A DNA stretch of 64,000 nucleotides from Gammaproteobacteria bacterium (GTDB lineage Bacteria > Pseudomonadota > Gammaproteobacteria > Xanthomonadales > SZUA-36): NCBI GenBank assembly GCA_024275935.1, contig JAJRYF010000082.1, positions 1 through 64,000 of the forward strand. The letters run 5' to 3'. Numbering within the stretch: the stretch's first letter is position 1; each line of letters begins with the position of its first letter. Below are positions 14,536 through 24,138 of this stretch, piece by piece. The notes under the pieces were generated by a model that saw only the letters and a list, made by a program, of their open reading frames with translations, did not search any database and was not told where the DNA came from. The position numbers were made by a program, and so were the translations under genes.

Positions 14536-14949
14536 ATGCAAGCTTTAACTAAATTTACTCTGATTATACTGGTGCTGGCGCTAACCGCCTGCGCTACCCC
14601 GCAACGCGAAAAGTCATTTGAAGTCAGCCTCAAGCAGATGGAAAAGTTAATCCGCTGGAGTGAGTTTGAAGGCGCAATGAATATGATCGCCCCAGAGTAC
14701 ATAGCTGAAAATAACATCACTCAGCTAGATGTCGAACGATTAAAGCAATACCGGGTAACCGGCTATACGGTGACGCAACAAGAGATGGACGCTGATCAAG
14801 TTTTATTCCGACAGCAAGTGCTATTGCAAATGTACAACACCCATAATCCGGTTGAGCGCAGCCTGCGCTGGAACCAGGAATGGCGTTATGATGAAGAGTC
14901 AAATCGTTGGACCATGCATTCGGGACTACCAGATGTGGTTGGTCGTTAA
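14536..14949 (+). CDS. small lipoprotein of unknown function
   Basis: A 137-residue protein with a type II signal peptide (lipobox ALTAC, cysteine about residue 19). The mature part reads as a compact alpha/beta domain with conserved-looking aromatic and charged clusters (KLIRWSEFEGA, LRWNQEWRYDE, RWTMHSGLP). The pattern of a helix followed by four strands ending in a W-rich strand resembles SnoaL/NTF2-like folds, but this is only an impression. A GGAA ribosome-binding site is present upstream. It lies between the thioesterase and ParA-like genes on the same strand. Confidence 0.7.
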   Translation: MQALTKFTLIILVLALTACATPQREKSFEVSLKQMEKLIRWSEFEGAMNMIAPEYIAENNITQLDVERLKQYRVTGYTVTQQEMDADQVLFRQQVLLQMYNTHNPVERSLRWNQEWRYDEESNRWTMHSGLPDVVGR

Positions 14950-14975
14950 TATTCATTAAACTGGGGAGTCTACAC

Positions 14976-15617
14976 ATGCGCACTATCACCGTTATTAATC
15001 CCAAAGGGGGCTGTGGTAAAACCACTATTGCCACCTGTCTGGCATCCCACCTTTCCTGGGATGGCTATAAGGTCGCTCTGGCAGATCTGGATCCACAACA
15101 ATCTACTACCGACTGGGGAGCTTTACGCTCTGAGGAATACCCCGAAATCGAGTTAATCAACCATGGCTCAGGTCAGGTTCGTGCTAGTCGTGGCACTGAT
15201 ATATTGGTGTTGGATTCCCCCGCCGGGGTGCATGGTAAAGAGCTGGGACAACTAGTTCGTCGCTCGCAAACATTATTGGTGCCAATACTGCCCTCACCCA
15301 TAGATATGCGTGCCTCCTGGCGTTTTCTGGAACAACTTTTCTCTTTAGCCCCCGTCCAAAAGGGCAAAGTAAAGGTTGGCTTGATAGCTAATAGAGTTAA
15401 AGAAAACACGCTTATTTATCGGGAATTAACCGGTTTCCTGGGCAAATACCGCGCTCCCTATGTAGCTCACCTGCGGGCTAGCATGAACTATGTAAGAGCT
15501 GCCGAAAAAGGCCTGGGTGTCGCTGATTTACCTCGCTACCTGGCTGAAAGAGACTGGCAGCAATGGAAGCCGTTAATGCGCTGGGTGGAAAGCAAGCGCT
15601 CTCAACCGAAAAACTAA
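14976..15617 (+). CDS. ParA-family ATPase (orphan)
   Basis: A 213-residue MinD/ParA-type ATPase. The deviant Walker A motif NPKGGCGKTT is at residues 7-16 and the A' motif ADLDPQQSTTDW at about 39-50. The Walker B-equivalent LVLDSPAGVHG follows near 76. ParA ATPases position DNA or protein cargo on the nucleoid or pole. No ParB, parS-like repeat or chemotaxis cargo gene is adjacent, so the cargo is unknown. The ATG at 14976, with GGGGAG about 9 bases upstream, is preferred to the earlier in-frame start at 14907, which lies inside the lipoprotein gene. Confidence 0.88.
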   Translation: MRTITVINPKGGCGKTTIATCLASHLSWDGYKVALADLDPQQSTTDWGALRSEEYPEIELINHGSGQVRASRGTDILVLDSPAGVHGKELGQLVRRSQTLLVPILPSPIDMRASWRFLEQLFSLAPVQKGKVKVGLIANRVKENTLIYRELTGFLGKYRAPYVAHLRASMNYVRAAEKGLGVADLPRYLAERDWQQWKPLMRWVESKRSQPKN

Positions 15618-15673
15618 CAACCAACACCCTGTAAATGATGCACTAAACACAAATCGGGAAGGATACCGATACC

Positions 15674-17101
15674 ATGAGATTATTTATATTTCTGCTACTA
15701 TTCTCAAGTTGCGGCTACAGCGCCGAATACCACATTGGCCCTGGTCAGCCTCTAGCTAATATTGCCGATGCTCCCTGGGCCACGCTGGTTGCCGGTGACA
15801 CCGTATATATACATTGGCGGGCACAGCCATATAAAGAAAAATGGGTAATCAACAGACAAGGCACTCCAAGCCAACCGATTTCCATAATTGGGGTTAGCAA
15901 TGGCTCTGGTCAACAACCGGTAATTGACGGCAACAACGCGGTCACAGTCGCTGGCTTGAATTATTGGAACGAATCTCGTGGGGTAATTAAGGTTGGTGGT
16001 TCCAACACACCAGCAGATGGTTTACCCCAATACATTGTGATTGAAAATCTGGAAATCCGTTCCGGCAGGCCCCCATATCAATTCACTGATGACAATGGTA
16101 GCACCCAGAATTACTCCAATAATGCAGCCAGCATTTATGTGGAAAAAGCCGCCAATCTGATAATTCGTAATTGCACCCTGCGAGACTCTGGCAACGGTTT
16201 ATTTATCGCTGCCAACGGAGGACAAACTAAGGATATCTTAATCGAGTCCAACCATATCTTTGATAATGGCATAGTTGGTAGGTTTTATGAGCACAATACT
16301 TACACTGCAGCCATCAACATCACCTATCAATATAATCGGTTTGGGCCACTAAGAAGCGGTGCCTTGGGAAATAACCTGAAAGACCGCTCTGCTGGCCTGG
16401 TGGTTAGATATAACTGGATAGAAAGTGGCAACCGGCAACTGGATCTCGTTGATGCTGAGGATTCATCAGTGCTGGTAAACCACCCAAATTACTCCGAAAC
16501 CTTCGTTTATGGCAACATTCTAATTGAGCCGGATGGTGCTGGAAACTCACAAATAATTCATTATGGTGGTGACAGCGGCACCTTTGCTGATTACCGTAAA
16601 GGTGATTTGTATTTATTCAACAACACCATAATTTCCACCCGTTCTGGTACTACAACTTTAGTGCGTTTATCTACCAATGATGAAACCGCACATATGTTTA
16701 ACAACATCATTTTTAATACTGCTAGCGGTAGCTCAATGGCGATGATTAGTGGCAATGGGACCTTTAATCTTAATAACAACTGGTTAAAAACTGGCTGGCG
16801 GGAATGCCATTGCTCACCTAGTGGCACAATCAATAATAACGGTGGCAATATTGAGGGTCTAGATCCATTATTTAACGACTTCAATGCCCAGCAGTTTGAC
16901 CTATTAAGCACTTCGGTGGCCAGAAACTCTGCTGGGGCACTTATGTCAGCAGTACTGCCAGCGCACCAGTTAATACAACAATACAAGCTCCACCAAAACA
17001 CTGTAGCACGCCCCGTTGATGGCGCATTGGATATTGGGGCTTTTGAGTTCTTTGATAGCCTAAACCTGGATTTAATATTTCTTGATGGGTTTGAGTTGTG
17101 A
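15674..17101 (+). CDS. secreted right-handed beta-helix protein with C-terminal IFLDGFEL tail
   Basis: A 475-residue exported protein. An N-terminal hydrophobic signal ends near CGYSAEY. It could be a lipobox-free signal peptide with cleavage after Ser-Ala, or a weak lipoprotein signal. The body is rich in Asn/Gly/Ile with repeats such as IRNCTLRDSGNGLF and ILIESNHIFDNGI, typical of parallel beta-helix (pectin-lyase-like) folds found in polysaccharide lyases and adhesins. No lyase active site could be assigned. The last residues LDLIFLDGFEL resemble a short acidic C-terminal tail (D-x-I-F-x-D-G-F-E) that I recall on many secreted proteins of some Gammaproteobacteria. Its role is not established here. 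Confidence 0.78.
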   Translation: MRLFIFLLLFSSCGYSAEYHIGPGQPLANIADAPWATLVAGDTVYIHWRAQPYKEKWVINRQGTPSQPISIIGVSNGSGQQPVIDGNNAVTVAGLNYWNESRGVIKVGGSNTPADGLPQYIVIENLEIRSGRPPYQFTDDNGSTQNYSNNAASIYVEKAANLIIRNCTLRDSGNGLFIAANGGQTKDILIESNHIFDNGIVGRFYEHNTYTAAINITYQYNRFGPLRSGALGNNLKDRSAGLVVRYNWIESGNRQLDLVDAEDSSVLVNHPNYSETFVYGNILIEPDGAGNSQIIHYGGDSGTFADYRKGDLYLFNNTIISTRSGTTTLVRLSTNDETAHMFNNIIFNTASGSSMAMISGNGTFNLNNNWLKTGWRECHCSPSGTINNNGGNIEGLDPLFNDFNAQQFDLLSTSVARNSAGALMSAVLPAHQLIQQYKLHQNTVARPVDGALDIGAFEFFDSLNLDLIFLDGFEL

Positions 17102-17118
17102 TGCAGGTGCCCTTTTGC

Positions 17119-17248
17119 CGTCATCCGGGAACCACCAGCTCTTCGTCATCCCGGAAATGCGAGTAGCATTATCCGGGATCCAGTTCCTCCGCATGGATTC
17201 CGGGTTCGGCTATTCGCCGCCCCGGAACGACGAACTACCGCGTCATCC
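17119..17248. repeat. palindromic dispersed-repeat cluster
   Basis: The gap between the beta-helix and DUF302 genes holds a unit at 17144-17232 whose ends are near-inverted copies (CGTCATCCCGG and CCGGAACGACG, nine of eleven positions matching). Inside it are further TCCGGGAT / ATTCCGGG palindromes, and extra CGTCATCC copies lie at 17119 and 17241. This is the look of the CGTCATCCCGG-type small mobile or REP-like repeats scattered in many bacterial genomes. No gene is encoded here. Confidence 0.65.
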
Positions 17249-17342
17249 AAGAACCAACTGCAACATACGCAACTAATATATTGCCTGTTTTAGTGCTGAT
17301 TAGGTAGAATGCACGATATTCATTCAATAATTGGAACCCTAG

Positions 17343-17726
17343 ATGAAATATATCCGCAAAACTGATAAATCCATTAAACAGGCAAGCGCCGACCTTGAAA
17401 CTGCTGTGGTAGCGCATGGCTTCGGGGTTTTACATATTCACAACCTGCGCGAAACCATGCATAAGAAAGGTGTGGAGTTCAATGAAGACTGTCTTATTTT
17501 TGAAGTCTGTAACCCGCATAAGGCCAAGCAAGTGCTGGAAACCGACATGAGCATGAATATGGCCCTACCCTGTCGTATCTCGGTGTACTCCGAAGCTGGC
17601 GACAACTATATCGGGATGATATTACCTGCGGCACTGCTGGGTATGCTAAGCGATAGCGATGCCTTAAAAGAAGTTGCTACTGAGGTTGAAGAGCTAAGCA
17701 TACAGATGATTGAAGATGCAATCTAA
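17343..17726 (+). CDS. DUF302 domain protein
   Basis: A 127-residue cytoplasmic protein. The central region with HGFGVLHIHNLRETMHKKG and FEVCNPHKAKQVLE matches the DUF302 pattern (a small alpha/beta domain with an N-P-x-x-A motif and a G-F-x-V-x-x-x-x strand). Function of the family is unsettled; some members sit near metal or redox genes. The last part is acidic and helical. The gene is preceded by a TAGAATG-type AT-rich promoter region and followed by the first copy of a 35-bp hairpin repeat. Confidence 0.82.
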   Translation: MKYIRKTDKSIKQASADLETAVVAHGFGVLHIHNLRETMHKKGVEFNEDCLIFEVCNPHKAKQVLETDMSMNMALPCRISVYSEAGDNYIGMILPAALLGMLSDSDALKEVATEVEELSIQMIEDAI

Positions 17727-17750
17727 CTGACCACAGTTCGTAAGAATTAC

Positions 17751-17785
17751 CTCACGGGTAGGCTCTCTGCCCGCGAGCTCTGTAA
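17751..17785. repeat. 35-bp hairpin direct repeat, left copy
   Basis: It matches the copy at 22244-22278 at 32 of 35 positions, in the same orientation. The core is an inverted repeat CGGGTAG / CTGCCCG around a 5-base loop; here one pair is a G-U wobble, while the right copy has the corresponding A-U pair. It may act as the terminator of the DUF302 gene, but its duplication at both ends of the 17.8-22.2 kb module suggests a boundary element. Confidence 0.7.
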
Positions 17786-17828
17786 CAACCCTCTGAGTAA
17801 ATAAGTCCTGCCAATCAAATTTCATTGA

Positions 17829-17840
17829 TGACATATGTCA
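17829..17840. promoter_or_regulatory. perfect 12-bp palindrome upstream of the ABC/two-component module
   Basis: TGACATATGTCA is a perfect palindrome, located about 85 bases before the preferred start of the ABC ATPase gene and the first gene boundary inside the repeat-bracketed module. NarL/DesR-type regulators bind short inverted repeats, so it is a candidate autoregulatory operator for the response regulator encoded at the end of the module. No matching second site was seen. Confidence 0.35.
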
Positions 17841-17924
17841 CTACATTTTAATGAGGTCAGTCAATTACTAGCCCGTCTGCAACCGCGTAGAGTACAACCT
17901 CCTAGAAAAAGTGTGTGTACAATC

Positions 17925-18821
17925 ATGAATTCATTCAGTTTGCAAAGCGCTAGCCCAAATACATCTGTAATATGTGCGCAGGGCCTATCGAAAAAATTTG
18001 ATAATGACTACGCTCTACAACATATAGATTTAAGCATTAAACCTGGCGGTGTTACGGCCATCTTGGGCGCAAATGGCGCTGGCAAAACAACCTTTATTCT
18101 TTGCTGTCTTGGTCTCAGTAAACAAAGCTCGGGCATGCTAACCATATTTGGTGAGGCGCCAGGTAGTATTGTTTCAAAACGGCGGATTGGGGTAATGCTT
18201 CAAGATGCTGACTTACCAGATTTACTTACTCCACAAGAGCACATTACGCTTTTTGCTAGTTACTACCCAAACCCAGAAAACATAGACGAAATTTTGAATA
18301 CCTGTAAGCTCACAGAGTTTGCAGACAAGAAGTATAGAAAACTATCTGGCGGACAAAAGCGCCGTGTCCAATTTGCTTTGGCAATTATTGGAGACCCTGA
18401 TCTTGTGTTCCTCGATGAGCCTACAACAGGTCTCGATACGGAAACACGCCGTATGCTCTGGGATGTAGTTCGCAAACTCGCGAAAACAGGGCGCACCATC
18501 ATTTTAACCACACACTATCTGGAAGAAGCAGATGTACTCGCTGATAGAGTTGTCGTTGTGAAAGCAGGCAGAATTATTGCTGATGGGGTGACTGCTGAAA
18601 TCCGGGAGCTTGCCGGTGGTGGACTAATAAAATGCATATCAAATGTAAGTGAAGATTATGACCATCTTTTTAGCCAGCCTGGCGTATTTAGCTTGGGCCA
18701 GACAGCGCAATTAACCAAGGACAAAAATCATCATGTTAAACAGAGTTTTTTTTATAACCATAAGCTCCTTGGTAGCTCTATTAGGTCTGGTTATACTTCT
18801 TCTACCTACACCCACACATAA
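17925..18821 (+). CDS. ABC-2-type transporter ATPase with aberrant C-terminus
   Basis: A 298-residue ATPase of the CcmA/drug-exporter class. Walker A GANGAGKTT (about residue 49), Q-loop MLQDADLPDLLT, signature LSGGQKRR, Walker B LVFLDEPTTGLD and the switch histidine TTHYLEEAD are intact. After VFSLGQTAQ the sequence no longer looks like the family: the usual 50-70 residue C-terminal segment is absent, and a Lys/His/Ser/Tyr-rich tail is read instead through the start of the next gene (89-base overlap). No ABC-2 permease gene follows. Start choice is uncertain: ATG 17925 fits the conserved region, while ATG 17835 would add 30 residues. Probably a remnant of a deleted ATPase-permease pair. Confidence 0.8.
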   Translation: MNSFSLQSASPNTSVICAQGLSKKFDNDYALQHIDLSIKPGGVTAILGANGAGKTTFILCCLGLSKQSSGMLTIFGEAPGSIVSKRRIGVMLQDADLPDLLTPQEHITLFASYYPNPENIDEILNTCKLTEFADKKYRKLSGGQKRRVQFALAIIGDPDLVFLDEPTTGLDTETRRMLWDVVRKLAKTGRTIILTTHYLEEADVLADRVVVVKAGRIIADGVTAEIRELAGGGLIKCISNVSEDYDHLFSQPGVFSLGQTAQLTKDKNHHVKQSFFYNHKLLGSSIRSGYTSSTYTHT

Positions 18822-20553
18822 AAATGAGGTGTTTTCGAACAATTCATTTGCGGTGGAAAATATTAGCATTTTTGATGGCTATAAAGTACTGAAAAATCAC
18901 AGTCTGATTGTCGAAGATGGCATCATTACACAGGTGGGCGAACAGATTGTAATTCCAAAAGGTATTTCTACCTTTAACGGCATCGGCAAAACCCTGTTAC
19001 CGGGACTGATAGATTCCCACACCCATGTTTATGGCGAAGCTTTACGCGCTAGCTTGCGTTTTGGGGTTACCACAAGTTTGGATATGTTCACCAGCCCCGT
19101 AATGCTCAAGAACATGAAAGATAAACGCCAGAGCCTCACCAATACAAGTGCCAGTGATTTATGGAGCGCAGGCATATTGGCAACGGTACCAGGCGGTCAC
19201 GGTACACAATTTCCTGTTTCAGTAGAAACAATCACCACAGCTGATGAAGCTCATACCTGGGTCGCAAACCGTATTGCGGAGGGCTCTGATTACATCAAGC
19301 TGGTTTATATGCCGAACAATAATTACATTAAAAGCCTTGATCTTATAACGGCAAGCGCAATAATAAAGGCCGGTCATGACCAAGGTGTCATGGTGGTGGC
19401 TCATATTTCCACACTAAAGGCCGCACAGGAAATGCTTGATGCCGGTATTGATGGGCTCGTGCATATATTTGCCGATAAGCCCGTCACAGAAAGATTTATT
19501 ACTCAAGCCGTTAAAGACGGAATCTTTGTCATCCCGACACTCACCGTTATAGCGGCAGTCGATGGTCAGAAAACTGGTGCTGCCCTTACTGAAAACCCAC
19601 AAGTCACAGCCTATTTAACAACACTACAAAAACAGGGGCTGGCGACAAATTTTGGCACATCCTGGCCTGGCTTTGATTTTGATATTGGTATGCAAAACAC
19701 ACTAAAACTGTATGCGGCTGGGGTTCCTATTCTGGCAGGGTCAGATGCTCCCAACCCAGGGACGGCTCACGGCGCAAGCTTGCATCAAGAAATGGAGCTG
19801 CTTGTGCGTGCAGGTTTAACACCGTTGGCCGCCCTGAGCGCCGCTACGGCTGCTCCTGCCCAAGCTTTTGGCATAAAAGGTCGCGGCAGCATTAAAGTTG
19901 GTGCGCGTGCAGACTTTGTAATTGTAACGGGTAGACCTGATGTCGATATTTCCCGCAGCCTCTTTATTGATAAAATCATTAAAAATGGGTATGAGGCAAA
20001 GCGGGAGAAACCAGAAGGATCAGATAATACGGCCCATCAGCCATTAGAATCGTCTTTGCTTGGGACATTTGATACAGATATTCTGCCGTCAACAGATTTG
20101 GCCAAACAGGGCTTCATCTGGGAAGGTACGGATGACCGCTTGGCAAATGGAAACTCTGAAGCCATGCTTTATCATATAGAAAATGGTGCTGATGAAACAG
20201 GCGGCGCTCTGCGTGTTCAGGCAAAGATTAAGTCTGGATTTTCATTTCCTTGGGCAGGTGCATATTTTGCCCGCACAGACCAGGCCGCACGCAACATTGA
20301 GGCCTATAAAACTATCAGTTTTCAGATACGCGGAACACCAGGCAAATATACAGCCTTGATGTTTACGGCAGGCATGGCAGGAATACCGCCAGCACAAACT
20401 TTTAATGTGAGCCACGACTGGGAAACTATCAGCCTTGATATGGAGACCTTTTCTGGGCTCAAGTCAGAATCATTTGTAGGTTTTGCAATTACGGCCGGAC
20501 CAGCACTCGGATCGTTTGATTATGACATAGATAATGTTATCTTTAGAGAATGA
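18733..20553 (+). CDS. secreted amidohydrolase (imidazolonepropionase-like) fused to a CIA30-like domain
   Basis: A 606-residue protein with an N-terminal signal anchor (about residues 4-25). Residues about 35-425 form an amidohydrolase-superfamily domain: LLPGLIDSHTHVYGE carries the metal-binding H-x-H, MVVAHISTLKAAQEM and GIDGLVHIF supply later histidines, and LAGSDAPNPG the catalytic Asp. Residues about 450-606 resemble the CIA30 / galactose-binding-like beta-sandwich (YKTISFQIRGTPGKY, DIDNVIFRE). Amidohydrolases of this branch hydrolyse amide or peptide-like bonds. The substrate is unknown. It starts inside the ABC ATPase frame and overlaps the kinase gene by ATGA, so it belongs to the module. 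Confidence 0.85.
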   Translation: MLNRVFFITISSLVALLGLVILLLPTPTHKNEVFSNNSFAVENISIFDGYKVLKNHSLIVEDGIITQVGEQIVIPKGISTFNGIGKTLLPGLIDSHTHVYGEALRASLRFGVTTSLDMFTSPVMLKNMKDKRQSLTNTSASDLWSAGILATVPGGHGTQFPVSVETITTADEAHTWVANRIAEGSDYIKLVYMPNNNYIKSLDLITASAIIKAGHDQGVMVVAHISTLKAAQEMLDAGIDGLVHIFADKPVTERFITQAVKDGIFVIPTLTVIAAVDGQKTGAALTENPQVTAYLTTLQKQGLATNFGTSWPGFDFDIGMQNTLKLYAAGVPILAGSDAPNPGTAHGASLHQEMELLVRAGLTPLAALSAATAAPAQAFGIKGRGSIKVGARADFVIVTGRPDVDISRSLFIDKIIKNGYEAKREKPEGSDNTAHQPLESSLLGTFDTDILPSTDLAKQGFIWEGTDDRLANGNSEAMLYHIENGADETGGALRVQAKIKSGFSFPWAGAYFARTDQAARNIEAYKTISFQIRGTPGKYTALMFTAGMAGIPPAQTFNVSHDWETISLDMETFSGLKSESFVGFAITAGPALGSFDYDIDNVIFRE

Positions 20554-21641
20554 CACATGAAGCACATAAGCTAGAACCCATAAAACGAAAGCGCACCTTT
20601 GCTTCAAACCCTGCGTTTTATCTTATTTATCTGTTGTTTTATTTTGGACCGTGGTTGTTTAAAGGCCCACAAACCAAGGATATCATTGCAGTTATTCTTG
20701 CAATTGCCGTGTTTTTACCTATCTATTATGTGGCATTTAATAAGACAACACCAAAATATATCAGCGCCATAATTGCTATGCAAGCAATCGGTTTCATTGT
20801 TGCTCCCTTTAACGGCATGCACGGAGTTTTTCATATTTATGCTTCTGTACAAGCTGGCTACCAAAGGCCAGCAAAGCGTGCCGGCATTATACTCTTGCTG
20901 TTGACACTTAGTTACCTGGCCTTATCTTATTTTTATACAAGCAACTGGTTTGAGGTTGTAATGGTGTTGTTCGTTGGCGCAGTGACAGGAATAGGCTGCA
21001 TGGCGAATGCTGAAGAACTAGAGCACCGGGAATATTTAGAACGCACCAGTGTTCTGGACAAACAACGAGCAACCCTTGCAGAGCGTGAGCGAATTGCAGC
21101 CGACTTGCATGACTTGCTGGGGCATACACTGACCATGGTGGCCTTGAAAGCAGAAGTGGCGGACAAATTTTTGGATAAAGATATTGGGCGAGCACGCCGC
21201 GAAATTCGTGAGATTCGCAATGAAGCCAGAGCTGCACTGGGCGATGTACGGCAAGCCGTATCGGGAATGAACACGGCGACAATAAAGACTGAGGTAGAAC
21301 GAGCCAAGATAGCTCTGCAGGCCGCCGGTATAGAGCTTGATATTTTGGGTGACCTGCCTAATCTAGATGACCAACAAGATAAAACCCTGGGGTTAGCTAT
21401 CCGCGAGGCGGTAACTAATATTGTTCGTCATTCAAAAGCCAAGAATGCGGAGCTTTCTTTTGTGCAAAGCCAAGAAGGGATAGTTATTTCTATAAAAGAC
21501 AATGGTGTAGGCGGTTCTTGTTTACTCGGCGCAGGGCTTACAGGGCTAAAAAGGCGCATTGAAAACCTTGAGGGTCGCGTTGATATTGATATGCATAATG
21601 GTACGCATATAAAATTATTTATGCGCGGGAGGAACTCATGA
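20550..21641 (+). CDS. DesK-type sensor histidine kinase
   Basis: A 363-residue membrane kinase. The N-terminal 150 residues hold about five hydrophobic segments and no obvious periplasmic domain, as in DesK-like sensors that read membrane state or work with ABC exporters. A dimerisation helix with H-box ERIAADLHDLLGHTL follows; the phospho-accepting residue is about His187. The HATPase domain shows IREAVTNIVRHSKAKNAEL (N box) and DNGVGG (G1 box), with a further glycine-rich box near LGAGLTGLKRR. Start and stop each overlap the neighbours by 4 bases. It is expected to phosphorylate the response regulator encoded next. Confidence 0.92.
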   Translation: MTHEAHKLEPIKRKRTFASNPAFYLIYLLFYFGPWLFKGPQTKDIIAVILAIAVFLPIYYVAFNKTTPKYISAIIAMQAIGFIVAPFNGMHGVFHIYASVQAGYQRPAKRAGIILLLLTLSYLALSYFYTSNWFEVVMVLFVGAVTGIGCMANAEELEHREYLERTSVLDKQRATLAERERIAADLHDLLGHTLTMVALKAEVADKFLDKDIGRARREIREIRNEARAALGDVRQAVSGMNTATIKTEVERAKIALQAAGIELDILGDLPNLDDQQDKTLGLAIREAVTNIVRHSKAKNAELSFVQSQEGIVISIKDNGVGGSCLLGAGLTGLKRRIENLEGRVDIDMHNGTHIKLFMRGRNS

Positions 21642-22240
21642 TACGCATTATCATTGCCGAAGATCAATTGCTCCTGCGGGGTGCTTTGGCAGCCTTATTG
21701 TCTCTGGAAGATGATATTGAGGTGGTTGCTGAAGCCAACGACGGACTTGAGGCTTTGAAGCTTATAAAGTTGCACAAACCAAATGTACTTGTTACCGATA
21801 TTGAAATGCCTAAATATTCAGGTATTGAGGTGGCACAGAAATTAAAACGAGAGAATAGCAATATCCGCATTTTAATTGTAACAACCTTTGCCCGCCCAGG
21901 TTATTTGCAGCGCGCCAGAGATGCAGGCGTAACCGGGTATATTCTCAAAGATACCTCTAGCGATGAATTATCACAAGCAGTCCGCACCGTCGCAAGTGGT
22001 GGCACCGTGATTGCGCCTGAACTATCACAAGCATCGTGGGTGCTACCTGATTCGCTAAACGATAGAGAGCGCGAAATTTTGCGCTTGGCTGAGGCCGGAA
22101 AAACCAACAAACAAATAAGCAAGGCGCTTAACTTAACACTCGGCACTGTTCGCAATTACCTCACAGAAGCTATGCATAAACTTGGTGCATCAAATCGCAT
22201 TGAAGCCTTCCGCACCGCCCGAGAAAATGGCTGGTTGTAA
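21638..22240 (+). CDS. NarL/DesR-family response regulator
   Basis: A 200-residue regulator. The receiver domain has the acidic pair Glu8-Asp9, phospho-acceptor Asp54 (in VTDIEMPK), the conserved Thr in IVTTFA and Lys in GYILKD. A LuxR-type helix-turn-helix occupies about residues 135-195 (LNDREREILRLAEAGKTNK, then TVRNYLTEAMHKLGA). It partners the overlapping DesK-type kinase. Likely targets are the module promoter and perhaps membrane-lipid or exporter genes, by analogy with DesKR. Its stop is only 3 bases from the right-hand 35-bp repeat. Confidence 0.92.
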   Translation: MIRIIIAEDQLLLRGALAALLSLEDDIEVVAEANDGLEALKLIKLHKPNVLVTDIEMPKYSGIEVAQKLKRENSNIRILIVTTFARPGYLQRARDAGVTGYILKDTSSDELSQAVRTVASGGTVIAPELSQASWVLPDSLNDREREILRLAEAGKTNKQISKALNLTLGTVRNYLTEAMHKLGASNRIEAFRTARENGWL

Positions 22241-22243
22241 GCT

Positions 22244-22278
22244 CTCACGGGTAGACTCTCTACCCGCGAGCTCTGTTA
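22244..22278. repeat. 35-bp hairpin direct repeat, right copy
   Basis: Second copy of the element at 17751-17785, with 3 differences. The hairpin arms CGGGTAG/CTACCCG pair perfectly around ACTCT. Its last three bases are the stop codon of the convergent sppA gene. It may serve as a terminator between the response-regulator and sppA genes. Confidence 0.7.
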
Positions 22279-24138
22279 ATCCAGGTTACACGCCATGCAA
22301 TGAGCGTAGGTTGCAAAGCCTGGTTCTGAGTTAGCCAAAATCTCCAGCTGCGTCAAGAAGCTACGAATTAATGGCCGTTGCAAGAGTGTTGAGGTAGCAA
22401 ATAACTCTGCTGGCAACAGGGTCATTGCACTGCTGGTCATTTGTAGCATAAACTGCTCAAATCCTGTCAGCTCAGGCTCTTGGTATTTGATTACATACTC
22501 ATCGGTACCACCAGCTAGTTTAGTTGCAGCAATTACCGCATCTTGCAGGCCACCCATATGATCAATTAAACCACGGTCTTGAGCCTGCTCACCACTCCAA
22601 ACTCGCCCTTGGGCAACTTCATCAACTTCATCTCTGGTCATTTGGCGAGCAGCACCAACCCGTTGCAAAAACTCTTCATAGCCCCGTTCAGTGGAGCGCT
22701 GGAAAACCTGGGCGACTTTAGGGTCAAGCTCCCGATCTAGACGCAGACCAGCCATCTCTGTTGTACCAAAGCCATCAGTATATATACCCATGCGCGCCAA
22801 GGTTTCCGGGAAAGTTGGAAGCATACCGAAGATACCAATAGAGCCAGTAATAGTTGCTGGGTCGGCCCAAATCTGATCAGCAGATGTGGCTATCCAATAA
22901 CCGCCTGAGGCGGCTACATCGCCCATAGAAATTACCACCGGTTTGCCCCGGTCTCTAACCGCTTGCAGTTCCCGCCGGATTACTTCGGAAGCAAAAGCAC
23001 TACCACCCGGGGAATTAACCCGCAATACCAAGGCATCCAGGCTTTTATTATTAGCAACTTTCCGAATCTGCTTGGCCACTGTTTCAGCAGCAATAACACC
23101 TGCTGGCTGCTTACCGCTAACTATGGGCCCTTCGGCAACGATAATAGCTATAATTTTGGCATCTAGTGCTGTTGCGACTTTCCCTAGCACTGGGGCGGCC
23201 TTTAGATAATCTTTAAATCCAATGCTTTTATAGCTATCAGCAGTACTACCTTTGCTGCCACGGCCAAGCATCTCACTACGAAACTCTGGTCTGGTGATTA
23301 ACCGATCAACCAGTTTCATGTCTACCGCAGCCTGAGCCATGCTACCTTCTGCCCGCTCAAGAATTTCTGGATAGTTCCCAATCATCGCCTCAAGTTCGGT
23401 TTCTTCCAACCCGCGACTTTTTGCCAGCCCTTGTAAATATTGCCGCCACAAGGAATTAAGCCAATACATACCCGACTCTTTGGCAGCTGGCGACATATCA
23501 TTACGAATATAAGGTTCCATTGCAGATTTATAGGTACCTACCCGGAATAAATTAATCTTGATCGATAATTTCTCCAGCGCCTCTTTGAAAAAGTTACGAT
23601 AGCTGGCATAACCTTCAATCAACACCGCTCCAAATGGGCTTAACCAAACCTCATCAGCCATCGCCGCCAGATAATACTGATGCTGACTCATGTTTTCAGC
23701 ATAGGCTATAACTGGCTTGCCACTGGTTTTGAAATCCGCAATAGCAGCTTCCAGTTCGTGCAAAGTTGCCAGTCCCACACCGAGCATATGCTCAGGCATG
23801 ATAATTAACTGGTTAATGCGGGCATCATCTTTTGCCTTGCCAATTGCGGCAACAATATCCCGCAGCTGGGTCTCTGAATCTTCCCTACCCATGGCCTCAT
23901 CCAGAAACCGCTGTCCGGGCTGCCCGGAACGCGCTTCTACTACCATCCCTTTAGGATTAAGGATCAGGGCTGTATTAGTATCAATAACACGCTTTTTATC
24001 ACCGCTCGAAAGCGCGATCACTACAATAAAAAAGAAAAAGAAAAACACCACATTTAAGATTATCTTCCGAAATATATCAGCCCCGCGCCAGAAGCCTCTC
24101 CAGGCTCTGCCTAGCATTGATCCGTTGGGATTTGTCAT
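22276..24138 (-). CDS. sppA: signal peptide peptidase SppA, 67K type
   Basis: A 620-residue inner-membrane serine protease that degrades signal peptides left after secretion. One N-terminal membrane anchor (about residues 25-44, very Phe-rich) is followed by two tandem ClpP-like domains. The Ser-Lys dyad is visible: Lys204 in FRVGTYKSAMEPY of the N-terminal domain and Ser411 in GDVAASGGYWIA of the C-terminal domain, the same arrangement as E. coli SppA (Lys209/Ser409). ATITGSIGIFG completes the active-site region. Length is typical. Its C-terminal codons run into the 35-bp repeat, so the last residues may have been remodelled. Confidence 0.95.
   Translation of the reverse strand: MTNPNGSMLGRAWRGFWRGADIFRKIILNVVFFFFFFIVVIALSSGDKKRVIDTNTALILNPKGMVVEARSGQPGQRFLDEAMGREDSETQLRDIVAAIGKAKDDARINQLIIMPEHMLGVGLATLHELEAAIADFKTSGKPVIAYAENMSQHQYYLAAMADEVWLSPFGAVLIEGYASYRNFFKEALEKLSIKINLFRVGTYKSAMEPYIRNDMSPAAKESGMYWLNSLWRQYLQGLAKSRGLEETELEAMIGNYPEILERAEGSMAQAAVDMKLVDRLITRPEFRSEMLGRGSKGSTADSYKSIGFKDYLKAAPVLGKVATALDAKIIAIIVAEGPIVSGKQPAGVIAAETVAKQIRKVANNKSLDALVLRVNSPGGSAFASEVIRRELQAVRDRGKPVVISMGDVAASGGYWIATSADQIWADPATITGSIGIFGMLPTFPETLARMGIYTDGFGTTEMAGLRLDRELDPKVAQVFQRSTERGYEEFLQRVGAARQMTRDEVDEVAQGRVWSGEQAQDRGLIDHMGGLQDAVIAATKLAGGTDEYVIKYQEPELTGFEQFMLQMTSSAMTLLPAELFATSTLLQRPLIRSFLTQLEILANSEPGFATYAHCMACNLD

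Follow-up and report, generated by a model that had tools for sequence, protein, structure and literature searches.

A 64 kb stretch of a gammaproteobacterial genome (the window) contains an operon for an ABC exporter, an amidohydrolase and a DesKR-type two-component system, which probably reached this genome from a different bacterial class and in which a deletion has destroyed part of the exporter. The operon is bracketed by two copies of a 33-bp palindromic repeat, the only two in the genome. The combined account given here is that the copies are gene-end hairpins beside a foreign, decayed operon and that the left copy most likely stems from a duplicated 3' end of the module that was later cut down; it is held with somewhat less than even confidence. 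The features are collected in Table 1.

Table 1. Features of the bracketed operon and its flanks (window coordinates)
Feature	Position	Strand	Remark
DUF302 gene, left of the module	17343..17726	+	sited elsewhere in three congeners
Regulator-like stretch, possibly left over from duplication of the regulator end	17732..17755	+	resembles 22144-22164
Left copy of the 33-bp palindromic repeat	17751..17783	+	24 bp after the DUF302 stop
Predicted DesR-type operator palindrome TGACATATGTCA	17829..17840	.	conserved in L064; no second TGACANNTGTCA in the window
ABC ATPase gene, truncated	17925..18821	+	homology to relatives stops at 18651
Permease gene remnant, last 19 codons (IMTIFLASLAYLAWARQRN) and stop	18655..18714	+	
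Amidohydrolase gene, with N-terminal hydrophobic segment	18733..20553	+	
Histidine kinase gene, HisKA_3 (DesK-like) type	20550..21641	+	
Response regulator gene, LuxR/NarL-type (DesR-like)	21638..22240	+	
Right copy of the 33-bp palindromic repeat	22244..22276	+	3 bp past the regulator stop; ends at the sppA stop codon
sppA	22276..24138	-	convergent with the module; stop codon position ancestral

The two copies lie in the same orientation and agree at 31 of 33 aligned positions. The first-pass annotation had described them as a 35-bp direct repeat (17751-17785 and 22244-22278, 32 of 35 identical), which is confirmed with 33 bp as the alignable part. This pair is the sole direct repeat of at least 20 bp (13-base exact seed) in the whole window, and the pattern had no occurrence in shuffled windows. 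On the + strand the repeat folds into 3 bp, a 1x1 mismatch and then 7 bp (8 bp if the loop has 3 bases). Both internal differences between the copies turn an A-U into a G-U pair on the + strand with pairing preserved, which bears out the earlier description of a 7-base stem that keeps pairing across a differing position. The right copy folds better than its shuffles (z of -3.7 on the + strand and -5.1 on the - strand), the left copy only moderately better (z of -1.8 and -1.4). The main stem of the right copy, which lies between a convergent gene pair, is fully paired on both strands. The left copy, which serves one gene, is fully paired only as + strand RNA, its G-U pairs holding on that strand alone.

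Whether searched with the pattern (up to three mismatches) or with a covariance model, the 2.42 Mb genome has these two copies and no others; a third match of the model was the right copy read on the opposite strand. With three mismatches allowed, the pattern was absent from 38 other genomes of the family and from 398 other genomes of the order. Among 369 genomes drawn across the class no other one had it, and it was likewise absent from the genome of the closest relative of the module (Robiginitomaculum, L064). The covariance model found nothing in three congeners, one further genome of the family and the L064 genome. The many copies scattered genome-wide that would have marked an ordinary terminator-type repeat were not seen, and a REP-like interspersed repeat, which would need many copies, is ruled out by the count of two. 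No match to the repeat was found in plasmids or, by exact-pattern scan, in viral contigs, and a phage comparison gave only a 17-base chance match in one phage. The viral contigs also held no relative of the amidohydrolase, and a phage or plasmid origin was rejected.

The foreign origin of the operon is concluded from homology and tree placement. Its closest relative lies in a metagenome assembly of Robiginitomaculum, an alphaproteobacterium (L064, JAESQN010000012.1), with protein identities of 62% for the amidohydrolase, 69% for the kinase and 81% for the regulator. Other relatives of the amidohydrolase are 32-47% identical, and in the window's own genus and family there are no close relatives, the best matches being distant (E of 1e-23 or weaker). 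In the tree, the window and L064 are joined with 100% SH-aLRT support, apart from members of the window's own order. The L064 operon is preceded by genes that we take to be tmk-holB-tatD, presumably an alphaproteobacterial setting, while the window's genome has genes read by us as dapF-DUF484-xerC-hslV, an arrangement that we assume to be usual in Gammaproteobacteria. The simplest reading of these comparisons is that the operon was transferred between the classes, in a direction that the data do not set. A comparison of composition, proposed earlier, separated the module from its surroundings only slightly: the GC content per module gene is 43.9-46.1% against 47.5% for the window, which alone is weak evidence.

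The pairing of a HisKA_3 kinase with a LuxR-type regulator makes the two-component system one of the DesKR type. The DesR-type box is ATGACA-N2-TGTCAT (PMC11034029), and positions 17828-17841 (ATGACATATGTCAC) match an operator of this type except at the last base. The DNA similarity between the window and L064 begins at about 17828, with TGACATATGTCA. Among 33 related amidohydrolase-kinase-regulator operons from several families (L064-L143), 23 carry TGACANNTGTCA before the first gene, within 350 bp upstream, and these make up most of its 33 occurrences in 1.07 Mb. The conserved palindrome is thus predicted to be the operator of the module's regulator. Since the ATPase start at 17835 falls inside this operator, a start at 17925 is proposed instead. 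The repeat itself was rejected as the operator, the conserved operator being a separate palindrome at 17829; the hairpins, positioned just outside the conserved unit, are likely not the site of the regulator.

DesKR-type systems with an adjacent ABC exporter, such as pneumococcal TCS11 (PMC11034029), are similar in their HisKA_3 kinase and LuxR-type regulator, in the ATGACA-N2-TGTCAT-type operator upstream and in the ABC transporter gene within the operon. They differ from the window operon in that the latter adds a membrane-anchored amidohydrolase and that its exporter is broken. The Robiginitomaculum operon shares gene order and operator with the window in addition to the protein identity of 62-81%, but its permease gene is intact and it has no hairpins. 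In Oxalobacteraceae the operon often consists of just amidohydrolase, kinase and regulator with the same box, so that the core occurs naturally without an exporter. The operon family (DesR box, optional exporter, amidohydrolase, kinase and regulator) is spread over several phyla. A literature search for the wider family found no description of it, which is weak evidence for its being undescribed. The present member seemingly crossed from one proteobacterial class to another with its operator and lost its exporter afterwards.

The loss can be read from the comparison with L064. In L064 and the other full-length relatives, a permease gene lies between the ATPase and amidohydrolase genes. About 0.9 kb of this arrangement is missing in the window: the ATPase gene lacks its end, and of the permease gene only 19 codons are left. 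The exporter is therefore probably dead. The permease remnant is fused out of frame to the truncated ATPase gene (junction 18651/18655), and the apparent overlap of the ABC and amidohydrolase genes is a product of this deletion. No permease copy was found elsewhere in the genome in a search run without a positive control. The reading frames of the amidohydrolase, kinase and regulator are still open, and these three look like the only intact genes. The module had been called self-contained in the first-pass annotation; it is indeed a foreign unit with repeats at its ends, but with its permease deleted and its ATPase truncated it is not an intact one.

From where the repeat copies lie, we infer a gene-end structure for the 33-bp palindrome: each copy comes after a + strand stop codon, palindromes are found at other gene ends, and the strand-wise pairing fits the neighboring genes. 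At the right copy the regulator and sppA transcripts, which converge there, would share their 3' end, and the left copy would form the 3' end of the DUF302 transcript. The window and the congeners have different palindromes at their other gene ends, some without a U-run. Against a gene-end role counts that neither copy has a U-run and that a simple scan predicts no termination. An intrinsic (Rho-independent) terminator was rejected, the stem being followed by CGAGCTCTGT instead of a T-run and the repeat being absent from the sites of the scan. A known RNA family was rejected as well, the Rfam matches being at chance level only. The right copy does not supply the stop codon of sppA, as had been claimed: sppA ends with TAA at the same position in three congeners, and the unbroken identity between the copies stops at the first base of this codon.

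The existence of two copies may be explained by a duplication within the operon. The left flank CACAGTTCGTAAGAATTAC runs into the first five bases of the left copy, CTCAC, much as the regulator gene reads at 22144-22164. Positions 17732-17755 share 20 aligned identities with that stretch, with one 3-base insertion, a likeness noticed post hoc. The two substitutions fall on third codon positions and are synonymous, and the indel has a length of 3 bases. The score of the flank was reached by 4 of 3000 anchored shuffles, while 40 other CTCAC sites of the window all scored lower, and an unanchored test against the whole module gave p 0.0065. Without the CTCAC bases the likeness is not significant. 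Overall, the p value is about 0.001-0.007, post hoc, for 19 bases plus a 5-base anchor. As the flank is short and was noticed post hoc, the explanation is held at modest strength: the left copy may have survived from a duplication of the end of the regulator gene. The operon, then a DesKR-regulated exporter/amidohydrolase operon, would have arrived by horizontal transfer to lie where it now is, between DUF302 and sppA, and the ATPase end and permease would have been lost later. The left copy would stem from a duplicated 3' end of the module (regulator tail and hairpin) that afterwards lost about 84 bp lying between two CTCAC words. The left copy would then not be the footprint of a dedicated integrase. 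Against this explanation counts that direct repeats bracketing a foreign segment are also expected from site-specific insertion.

Such an insertion, that is, a mobile cassette, is a possible reading. In the form considered here, which is rather doubtful, the hairpins would be attL and attR of a non-autonomous element, and a recombinase acting in trans would have integrated a circle bearing the module and one hairpin at a hairpin located between DUF302 and sppA. As in genomic islands with attL and attR, direct repeats of typical core length lie at both edges of the foreign DNA. The inverted arms of about 11 bp around a centre of 5-7 bp resemble the core site of a tyrosine recombinase, and five tyrosine recombinases are encoded in the genome, among them an integron integrase and two that we take to be XerC/XerD-like. 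However, only the ABC ATPase, amidohydrolase, HisKA_3 kinase and LuxR-type regulator genes lie between the repeats, with no integrase or transposase, and the interval, filled by the conserved unit, leaves no room for a lost integrase. The genome has no additional copies. Genomic islands also differ from the window module in their integrase and recurrence in related modules, and no empty site was found. The bracketing repeat is absent from the L064 operon and from 38 other related operons, and the hairpins are therefore features of this genome's own junctions, not of a travelling cassette. The earlier proposal of a cassette that entered at a hairpin site thus stands as to the foreign unit with repeats at its ends, but travel with the hairpin is unsupported. 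DUF302 and sppA lie on different contigs in all three congeners, so that the pre-insertion neighborhood cannot be read there, and none of the genomes examined had the two genes separated by a single repeat copy. The hairpins would matter only if such a single-copy empty site showed that they had directed the insertion.

An integron cassette was also weighed. The hairpin follows a gene in the same orientation at each junction, as attC sites do, and the integron integrase is encoded elsewhere in the genome. In attC sites, RYYYAAC and GTTRRRY boxes flank the hairpin; no such box pair was found around either copy with two mismatches allowed, and attC was rejected. Further differences are the two near-identical copies and the multi-gene operon with its own operator. 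It is a long shot that the palindrome represents a recombination site of a new type, used by a tyrosine recombinase of the host (possibly the integron integrase) to insert multi-gene cassettes lacking an integrase and attC boxes. A more ordinary origin, in which the copies are 3' stabilisers or weak bidirectional terminators made alike by local copying or gene conversion unrelated to the arrival of the module, is unlikely. It would agree with the position of both copies just past stop codons in the same orientation and with gene-end palindromes being usual here, but the other palindromes all differ, and only these two match and bracket a foreign unit. An assembly artefact, in which the joining of metagenome pieces made the bracketing or the internal deletion, is very improbable. 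The assembly is fragmented (155 contigs, 92% completeness), but the repeat is short relative to usual assembly words, and gene order and operator position agree with L064. Moreover, the copies differ at two positions, so they are not one sequence used twice.

The surroundings of the module vary among relatives. The region downstream of sppA (14950-22276 of the window; L053-L055) differs between the window and each of the three congeners. In two genomes from another genus of the family (L061, L062), sppA and the counterpart of the window gene at 14536-14949 are directly convergent. The region 14950-22276 looks like an insertion hotspot. At 17115-17260, between a beta-helix gene and the DUF302 gene, lies a cluster of palindromic words of the TCATCCCGGAA / TCCGGGATCCAG type, possibly REP-like.

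The integron integrase of the genome is full-length (TIGR02249, 460 bits) and is encoded near 33 kb of G000:C153 (L163 1450-2424). As its gene lies close to the end of the contig, that contig would not contain a cassette array upstream of the gene. Two more integron-integrase-like proteins are encoded at L164 1429-2385 and L165 1183-2139 (G000:C155 and C27). Their match ends before the C-terminal region with the catalytic tyrosine, and they carry TLRNSF/SLRNSF instead of HTLRHCF. Both look catalytically inactive, judged from these residues.
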